In this document: one piece after another, positions 46,991 through 49,067 of the stretch
Position numbering within the stretch: the first letter of the stretch is position 1
Layout of the letters: the number at the start of each line of letters is the position of its first letter
DNA from: Spirochaetae bacterium HGW-Spirochaetae-3
Lineage (GTDB): Bacteria > Spirochaetota > Spirochaetia > Treponematales > UBA12059
Assembly: GCA_002839315.1 (NCBI GenBank)
Contig: PGXV01000013.1
Coordinates: 1-64,000, forward strand
Length of the DNA: 64,000 nt
Reading direction: 5' to 3'
The notes under the pieces: generated by a model
What the model was told of the DNA's origin: nothing
Databases searched by the model: none
The model's input: the letters and a program-made list of their open reading frames with translations, nothing else
Program-made: the position numbers and the translations under genes

Positions 46991-47019
46991 TTGACAGCTC
47001 CGCCGGCTTGCCGTATAAG
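46991..47019 (+). promoter_or_regulatory. promoter of the riboswitch-tonB transcript
   Basis: A perfect TTGACA, 17 bases, TATAAG. The start of transcription would be near 47026, right before the riboswitch. Confidence 0.85.
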
Positions 47020-47030
47020 GGGGGTACGTC

Positions 47031-47199
47031 AAGGTTCGGAACGCGGCCGGAGAGACCGCATTCCGCCAAGAGGGAATCCCGTTTAAATCGGGAGCGGACC
47101 CGCCGCTGTAACCGGGAACGAAGACCGTACGATGCCACTGACCGAAGCCCGGTCGGGAAGGCGCGGACCTCGAATACCCCGGAAGCCAGAAGACCTGCC
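47031..47199 (+). promoter_or_regulatory. cobalamin riboswitch
   Basis: The 5' arm, the conserved AAGAGGGAATCC, the GCGGACCCGCCGCTGTAACC core (47101-47120 region), GATGCCACTG and the 3' block GGAAGCCAGAAGACCTGCC occur in the order and spacing of B12 riboswitch aptamers. The whole is about 170 bases. It precedes exbB by about 170 more bases. No intrinsic terminator is visible there, so control may act on translation or by a rho-dependent route. AdoCbl would be expected to lower expression. Confidence 0.92.
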
Positions 47200-47370
47200 T
47201 AGACGATACTGTCCGTGCGGTACGTGGTGATCCGCGCGCGATGCGTAGGCGAGGCCTCCCTTCTCCACAGAGCGCCCTATCCCTATCGTCGTCCGCTGCG
47301 CTCATCCTTCCGCCGGTCCGTGCGAGGTAACGCGGATGGATCTTAGTCTTTCAGATCACGAGCCGGTCAT
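47200..47370 (+). other. expression-platform region between riboswitch and exbB
   Basis: I see no gene here. GTCCGTGCG occurs twice (near 47211 and 47316). No T-tract terminator is visible, and the region before the ATG at 47371 has no clear ribosome-binding site. Confidence 0.4.
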
Positions 47371-48084
47371 ATGCTCGCTATCCTAGCCAGGCTCGCCGCC
47401 GCCGCCGAATTCCTCGGCCGAGGCGGCGCGATTAACGCGGTCATCGGGGCGCTCTACGTCTGCGTCGTCATAGTCGCGGCCGAGCGCGCCGCCTACTTCA
47501 TAGGGACCCGATACCGGCGGCCCGCCCTGCTCGACGGCCTGGCGCGACTCGCCGAGGAGGCGGCGGCGGACGACGGAAGCCCGAGCGGGTTCCCGTGGCC
47601 GGCGCGCTACGCTCGCAGCCAACCCATACGGTTGATACGCGTCGCGCTCCGCGAGCGGGGCCGTTCGCGGGCGTCGATGGACGAGGCGCTGGAACGCGAG
47701 GGAGCGTCGCTCCGTACCGAGATGGAACGCGGGCTCGAGGCGCTGTCTATCATAGGCGCGGGAGCTCCGCTGCTCGGCCTCCTCGGCACCGTGACCGGGC
47801 TCATGGCCGCCTTCGGCCGCATAGAGTCGCTAGGCGGCGCGGTAGATATCGCGGCGCTGTCCGGCGGCATATGGGAGGCGATGATAACCACGGCTACGGG
47901 GCTCGGGGCGGCCATACCGGCGATAGCCATAGGCAAGGCGTTCGAGCGCACCGTCGAGCTGCGGCTCCGCGACATGGCCTACGCCGCGTCGGCGATGGCG
48001 GAGGCGCTCTGCGAGCGCGGATCCGGCGACGCCGAGGACGGTCCCGCCCCCGCGTCACGCCCGGGCGCCCTCGAGAGCGCCTAG
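47371..48084 (+). CDS. exbB: ExbB/TolQ-type proton channel protein
   Basis: This 237-residue inner-membrane protein has three membrane helices: near residues 20-40, 125-150 and 165-190, with the family block IGAGAPLLGLLGTVTGLMAAF and ATGLGAAIPAIA. With ExbD it forms the proton channel that energises TonB. It is followed by exbD after one base. The B12 riboswitch upstream suggests the complex serves cobalamin import. Confidence 0.9.
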   Translation: MLAILARLAAAAEFLGRGGAINAVIGALYVCVVIVAAERAAYFIGTRYRRPALLDGLARLAEEAAADDGSPSGFPWPARYARSQPIRLIRVALRERGRSRASMDEALEREGASLRTEMERGLEALSIIGAGAPLLGLLGTVTGLMAAFGRIESLGGAVDIAALSGGIWEAMITTATGLGAAIPAIAIGKAFERTVELRLRDMAYAASAMAEALCERGSGDAEDGPAPASRPGALESA

Positions 48085-48085
48085 C

Positions 48086-48487
48086 ATGCTGAGTTTCGGC
48101 GCGCCGCGCAGAAGGCGCTCGGACTTGAACGTCACCTCGCTCATCGACGTCGTCTTCATCCTGCTTATTTTCTTCATGATCAGCTCTACGTTCGACAAAC
48201 CGGCCATCGTCGTAGACCTCCCGGAGACGTCGTCGGGCGAGCCGGGCGAGCGGCGGGGAACGAGCGTATCCGTCGAAGCCGACGGCAGCATCTATCTCGA
48301 CGGCCTGGAGACGAGCGTAGCCGGGCTGGAGGCAGCCATAGCCCCGCTCGTATCAGCCGATCCGGACGTCCCCGTCTCGTTGTACTGCGACGATTCGGTG
48401 CCGTTCGGAACCGTAGCCTCCATCGTCGACGCCCTGAAAGCCGCGGGGACGCGCCATGTGGCCATCCGCTACGAACAGGCGCGCTGA
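48086..48487 (+). CDS. exbD: ExbD/TolR-type protein
   Basis: This 133-residue protein has the N-terminal NVTSLIDVVFILLIFFMIS helix with the conserved Asp that carries protons, and a periplasmic domain. It is the partner of ExbB. The following tonB gene starts 32 bases before its stop in another frame, which implies tight coupling. Confidence 0.92.
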   Translation: MLSFGAPRRRRSDLNVTSLIDVVFILLIFFMISSTFDKPAIVVDLPETSSGEPGERRGTSVSVEADGSIYLDGLETSVAGLEAAIAPLVSADPDVPVSLYCDDSVPFGTVASIVDALKAAGTRHVAIRYEQAR

Positions 48488-49067
48488 TCGCGCGCTGACC
48501 GCGGCCATAGTCGCGGCCTTGGCGCTAGCCCACGTAGCCGCGCTGATGCTCGTTAACACGCCCTCGACCGCCGTTCCCGTCGCCGGCACGCGGCTTTCCA
48601 TGGAGTTCGGGGCGGCGGGGCCTCGTCCCGCCGCGATGCCGCCCGAGAAAGCCGCGCCGCCGGTCGACGCCTGGAAGCCCGTACCGCTAGCCGATCCCGC
48701 GCCGGCGGACGAGGCGGACGTCGAGGAGATCCGGCGGGAAACGCGGGCCGCCGAGGCGCCGGCCCGAGGGGGCGAGGCGCCGGGAAGCGTAGACGTGGCG
48801 GGACCGATTCTGCGCCGCCTGCGAGACTACAGGGTCTACCCTATGGCGGCGCGGCGGCGCGGCGTGGAAGGAGACGTGGTCGTCCGCTTCGCGCTGCGCG
48901 CCGACGGGTCCCTGGTAGCGGAGCCGACCGTTTCCGGGGAGGCGCATCCGCTACTCGCGCGCGCGGCCGTGGAATCGGTCGTCGCGGCCGCGCCGTTCCC
49001 CGTGCCGGAGGGCGTCCGCGCCGACTCTGAATTCGTGGTCACCATCGCCTACAGGTTAAGCGACTGA
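48456..49067 (+). CDS. tonB: TonB energy transducer
   Basis: This 203-residue protein has a single N-terminal membrane helix (about 15-35), a proline- and acid-rich stretch (50-105) and the TonB C-terminal domain (YPMAARRRGVEGDVVVRFAL, SGHPLL-like GEAHPLLARAAVESV). It contacts outer-membrane receptors and passes on the energy of the proton gradient. Its end overlaps the convergent membrane-protein gene by 12 bases. No TonB-dependent receptor lies in the window. Confidence 0.92.
   Translation: MWPSATNRRADRALTAAIVAALALAHVAALMLVNTPSTAVPVAGTRLSMEFGAAGPRPAAMPPEKAAPPVDAWKPVPLADPAPADEADVEEIRRETRAAEAPARGGEAPGSVDVAGPILRRLRDYRVYPMAARRRGVEGDVVVRFALRADGSLVAEPTVSGEAHPLLARAAVESVVAAAPFPVPEGVRADSEFVVTIAYRLSD

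Follow-up and report, generated by a model that had tools for sequence, protein, structure and literature searches.

A cobalamin riboswitch heads the exbB-exbD-tonB genes of a spirochaete genome that has a single recognisable TonB and a single recognisable receptor

Results

The locus described here lies in a 64-kb stretch of contig PGXV01000013.1 from Spirochaetae bacterium HGW-Spirochaetae-3 (hereafter the window; the genome containing it is G000), where a promoter, a cobalamin riboswitch and the genes exbB, exbD and tonB follow one another on the forward strand. The aptamer (47015..47216, +) matched the Rfam covariance model RF00174 over its full length (model 1-189) with a score of 110.3 bits (gathering score 31.5; E 9e-27), and was the sole Rfam match in the 64-kb window; it carries the B12 box AGCCAGAAGACCTGCC and an L5 loop, ACCCG, at 47098-47102. 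The covariance-model search therefore bears out the full cobalamin aptamer claimed in an earlier, sequence-only reading of this DNA. The promoter (46991..47019, +) consists of a perfect -35 hexamer, TTGACA (46991-46996), a 17-nt spacer and a -10 hexamer, TATAAG (47014-47019), that agrees with the consensus at 5/6 positions, giving a total of 11/12; when the intergenic bases were shuffled 500 times, the maximum was 10/12. That reading had called the promoter perfect, which holds for the -35 hexamer and not for the -10. TTGAC and TATAA, that is five of the six bases of each hexamer, are also found at the 17-nt spacing in the related genomes G003 and G006. Judging from the sequence, transcription would start at about 47026, near the first base of the aptamer. 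With the promoter upstream and the regulated genes on the same strand, the riboswitch occupies a 5' leader.

Downstream lie exbB (47371..48084, +), which encodes the proton channel subunit (PF01618, 98.4 bits) and matches E. coli ExbB structures, exbD (48086..48487, +; PF02472, 101.2 bits) and the energy transducer gene tonB (48456..49067, +; PF03544, 42.2 bits; TIGR01352, 41.1 bits), the start of which overlaps exbD. All three are above the Pfam cut-off, and Asp21 of ExbD aligns with the channel residue Asp25 of E. coli ExbD (structure 6tyi); the aptamer and the Ton genes are typical representatives of families already known. The Rfam and Pfam matches also uphold the gene order proposed earlier, the aptamer standing upstream of exbB-exbD-tonB with no other long gene between. 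In the interval from the aptamer to exbB a strict scan found neither a promoter nor an intrinsic terminator on the + strand, as the sequence-only reading had noted for the terminator, and its absence would be explained by a translational platform. A missed promoter in this interval, which that reading had named as grounds for giving up its claim, was rejected, since the best candidate of a permissive scan from the aptamer into exbB scored 7/12, and the claim stands on this point. We regard it as very probable that the riboswitch controls exbBD-tonB.

Two hairpins make up the putative expression platform. Hairpin 1 (47215..47237, +; loop UACGUGGUGAU) follows the aptamer directly on its 3' side, is conserved in G003, G006 and G010, and is a candidate P13/L13. 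The other, UCCGUG-CGAGGUAA-CGCGGA (47317..47338, +), presents the Shine-Dalgarno sequence GAGG (47324-47327) in its loop and AUG 47336 at its foot, an arrangement of GAGG loop and immediate AUG that is common to four related leaders (the window, G003, G006 and G010). Invariant positions in the aligned leaders amounted to 74% in the aptamer, 16% in the linker, 86% in the Shine-Dalgarno block and 19% after it; the linker (47243-47309) is C-rich and unconserved. In G003 and G006, members of the same genus, the platform AUG is the first codon of tonB, and in G010, where the block is similar (stem UCCUG/CGGGA), it opens a CobA-like ORF, by its sequence the probable cobA gene for cob(I)alamin adenosyltransferase. 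The tonB of G003 (L099:1361-2118) is itself unusual in that it seems to switch reading frame: the platform AUG is followed by about 200 codons and a stop, and TonB_C matches in a different frame, which may reflect a pseudogene or an assembly error.

In B12 switches, L5 (consensus UCCCG) and L13 form a kissing loop that controls a hairpin with the ribosome-binding site, with a bulge in the case of env8HyCbl (PMC10653944). The L5 loop of the window reads ACCCG against the consensus UCCCG (PMC10653944), and among several candidate partner sites in the platform is the Shine-Dalgarno loop CG(A)GGU, which is able to form 5 bp with it if one A is bulged. Assignment of L13 by duplex energy was not adopted, the Shine-Dalgarno loop being the best L5 duplex in 0/3 genomes and the best site being a different one in each of the three; with these competing sites, the Shine-Dalgarno loop is a possible L13. 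Neither platform hairpin had two-sided base changes among three sequences, a small number for covariation, and the minimum free energy fold of the leader was no better than that of shuffles, so that the fold was not used as evidence.

In the window, AUG 47336 opens a 16-codon leader ORF (47336..47386, +; MDLSLSDHEPVICSLS), located between the aptamer and exbB and not mentioned in the sequence-only reading, which is the sole start with a strong Shine-Dalgarno sequence in that interval. The ORF overlaps the start of exbB by 16 nt and is out of frame with it (TAG 47384-47386 against AUG 47371), and its Shine-Dalgarno energy is strong, -5.4 kcal/mol, compared with a weak -2.2 kcal/mol for exbB. 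Short ORFs were also seen in btuB leaders. That of G000 (contig C2, L006:4471-4526) has a strong Shine-Dalgarno sequence, UCGAGGAGU (-8.4 kcal/mol), and a start codon for an ORF of 14 codons, 43 nt downstream of the aptamer and 82 nt upstream of btuB, which has a Shine-Dalgarno sequence of its own; the same motif marks the start of short ORFs (5-24 codons) in G001, G002, G004, G015 and G020. A leader ORF as a general trait of the btuB leaders of the order was rejected: 12/26 had one against 6 expected from shuffles, which leaves six conserved cases from two genera as the noteworthy ones.

A search of the whole genome (3.88 Mb, 98% complete, 18 contigs) found three cobalamin riboswitches, heading exbBD-tonB, btuB, and btuFCD with B12 salvage genes. 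The one on contig C2 precedes a 634-aa TonB-dependent receptor, for which the best NCBIfam model was the vitamin B12 receptor TIGR01779 (E 2.8e-52; 178 bits, below the 600-bit equivalog cut-off) and the best PDB matches were BtuB. Behind the third lie btuF-btuC-btuD-cobT, a cobC/cobQ-like fusion and cbiB, the last named from its sequence and the others from their domains. The fusion is an ORF of 916 aa in this riboswitch-controlled salvage operon (contig C4, L007:6314-9064) that joins a CobC/CobD-like aminotransferase domain to a cobyric acid synthase-like domain (CbiA + GATase_3) and is an apparent gene fusion. Domain counts for the genome gave one TonB_C, which is the TonB of the window, one Plug and one receptor barrel, and this sole recognisable receptor is the one behind its own cobalamin riboswitch. 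A search for CbiC, which acts in the synthesis of the corrin ring, found none in the genome; B12-binding domains numbered five. The earlier suggestion of a dedicated cobalamin Ton system, for which further B12 riboswitches and receptors were to be sought in the genome, thus gains support from all these results: two more riboswitches, on btuB and on btuFCD and salvage genes, a single receptor that is itself B12-riboswitched, and a single TonB, in a genome with B12-binding domains where CbiC was not found.

A second exbB-exbD pair is present on contig C1 of G000 (L119:1348-3367), adjoining a gene that appears CheA-like from its sequence. It is followed by a gene for a 311-aa protein with a TonB-like end (...SGRFTYRF), which matched nothing in Pfam and nothing informative in NCBIfam and is, on the strength of that ending, a possible unrecognised transducer of the TonB/TolA type. 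The second set may be TolQRA-like or another motor.

Association between cobalamin aptamers and tonB is frequent among relatives. In 99 genomes, 30/71 TonB matches were located ≤8 kb from a cobalamin aptamer, compared with about 0.7 expected, and in 10 of the 61 TonB-bearing genomes of the order tonB followed an aptamer of the same strand at a distance of <3 kb. Six of these ten (G002, G031, G034, G051, G082 and G085) have btuB-tonB behind the riboswitch with the receptor gene first, and the remaining four (G000, G003, G006 and G098) have no intervening receptor; B12-riboswitch control of TonB is therefore recurrent in the order, usually as a btuB-tonB operon. No ExbBD was detected by tblastn beside btuB-tonB in G002 and G031, the two of the six searched. 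In many other genomes the riboswitch-btuB unit and tonB are convergent. G098 belongs to another family and has a tonB-type ORF a few bases after a cobalamin riboswitch with no receptor (L103:623-2295), an apparently independent example of tonB being headed directly by a riboswitch. In G005, of the same genus as the window, cobT lies next to rnf-type genes and is headed by a cobalamin riboswitch with a high score (L101:3610-5064), and Pfam searches of that genome found no TonB and no receptor.

In G003 and G006 the same riboswitch as in the window heads tonB alone, without adjoining exbBD, and the G006 locus is syntenic with the window, the neighbouring amylase, TetR and Rnf-type genes matching. 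In the TonB tree these two group with the window (87/97) within the exbBD-linked type (92/86). A recent gain of exbBD at a riboswitch-tonB locus was rejected, the tree fitting loss of exbBD in G003 and G006 better, with moderate support. The closest named ExbB relatives in the public genome set were metagenome assemblies of Spirochaetales, Treponema and Spirochaetaceae, and the nearest exbBD-tonB relatives (ExbB identity 44-52%) lie in FecCD-ABC-binding protein-exbBD-tonB-receptor operons without a riboswitch.

Discussion

Our findings suggest that the control of exbBD-tonB is likely to be translational. When adenosylcobalamin is scarce, GAGG 47324-47327 would be free and ribosomes would start at AUG 47336; when B12 is bound, the L5 kissing loop would close the Shine-Dalgarno hairpin, making the platform a translational OFF switch. 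The ribosome would translate the 16-codon leader ORF and restart at the overlapping AUG of exbB, with its weak Shine-Dalgarno sequence, and translation of exbD and tonB would then follow through the tight or overlapping junctions. Whether the leader ORF relays B12 control to exbB in this way is, in our judgement, an evenly balanced question. A relay of this kind has been described in Mycobacterium tuberculosis, where ppe2 is without a Shine-Dalgarno sequence and a riboswitch-gated uORF is essential for it (PMC11260477). As in ppe2/uPPE2, the riboswitch of the window would gate the Shine-Dalgarno sequence of a short ORF whose end runs over the start of a downstream gene that has little or no Shine-Dalgarno sequence of its own (PMC11260477). 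The two differ in phylum and in the downstream gene, which is unrelated, and whereas the ppe2 overlap is a 4-nt AUGA and experimentally proven, that of the window is 16 nt and its relay is predicted. Since the 4-nt NUGA stop/start overlap is absent at the leader ORF and exbB, the leader ORF may act like the ppe2 relay and is not classed as the same.

The riboswitch might instead repress exbB directly at its own weak start, the 16-codon ORF being incidental, for example an ancestral tonB or exbB start that has drifted out of frame. This is possible, if the less favoured explanation, and it would account for the GAG found at a workable spacing before exbB (-2.2 kcal/mol) and for the codons after AUG 47336 being unconserved (19% invariant). 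It fits less well with the conservation of the Shine-Dalgarno hairpin and AUG (86%) at a point where no long gene starts in the window, while exbB has no comparable signal. The same conserved element, being a ribosome-binding site, also speaks against Rho-dependent premature termination in the C-rich stretch of 150 nt between the aptamer and exbB, in which B12 would block leader translation and so expose the RNA to Rho. The C-rich, unconserved linker and the missing intrinsic terminator fit such a mechanism; Rho sites, on the other hand, gave no direct sign, and we consider it unlikely.

With regard to the cargo, one recognisable TonB and one B12-riboswitched receptor suggest a motor with no other cargo than B12, and the presence of a B12 riboswitch before each of the receptor, the motor and the importer with its salvage genes supports a dedicated system; the three would rise and fall jointly with B12. 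That the Ton system is used mainly for B12 is highly likely, and the locus is probably an operon, repressed by B12, that encodes the inner-membrane motor of a Ton system with cobalamin as its one cargo. It is improbable that the TonB also serves iron, heme or other cargoes through receptors that Pfam does not recognise, with B12 control as one input, given one Plug and one barrel in the whole genome and the B12 riboswitch on the only receptor. Divergent receptors could nevertheless escape Pfam, and this broader role would suit both the second exbBD of the genome and the closest ExbBD-TonB relatives, which lie in FecCD-ABC-binding protein-receptor operons of no evident cargo. The main caveat to dedication is that the second exbBD and the 311-aa protein, if the latter is a transducer as its sequence allows, could share work with the motor of the window. 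Motors may also be interchangeable, since genus members without exbBD adjoining tonB have an ExbB elsewhere in the genome, as in G003, where it is of about 32% identity. Taken as a whole, the fuller model, in which B12 shuts off the motor of a one-cargo Ton system through a translational riboswitch relayed by the 16-codon ORF and receptor, motor and importer form a three-riboswitch regulon, is put forward tentatively, as somewhat less than an even prospect.

Ton motors are usually regarded as shared machines regulated by iron, and the Ton genes of E. coli are iron-responsive through Fur and are not known to be under a B12 riboswitch. The translational riboswitch of E. coli btuB, which acts through an L5-L13 kissing loop, shares with that of the window the aptamer family, the position in a 5' leader, the lack of an intrinsic terminator and, as predicted for the window, the repression of a gene for B12 uptake by its product. 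Unlike it, the riboswitch of the window heads motor genes and not the receptor, and the start codon that it would gate opens a leader ORF. In the btuB-tonB operons of relatives, TonB is under apparent B12 control as it is here, but the receptor precedes it. Caldithrix abyssi resembles the genome studied here in that it does not make B12 de novo, has BtuB, TonB-ExbB-ExbD and BtuCDF, and carries a riboswitch on the receptor operon, and differs in that the riboswitch is described for the btuB-btuF operon only and not for the Ton motor genes (PMC5317091). The literature searched, which took in few subscription papers, contained no description of exbBD-tonB behind a B12 riboswitch. The components are known; what appears new is the B12 control of motor genes where the genome has a single recognisable TonB and a single receptor, together with the leader ORF, the response to the ligand being predicted from the sequence.

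Should the leader ORF have this role, it would provide a second natural example, from a phylum other than that of ppe2, of a B12 riboswitch that works by way of a short ORF. One recognisable TonB and one receptor, both under B12 riboswitches, amount to a natural minimal Ton system, and in such a genome the cost of the motor, the supply of receptor and the cargo could be examined free of competition from other cargoes.
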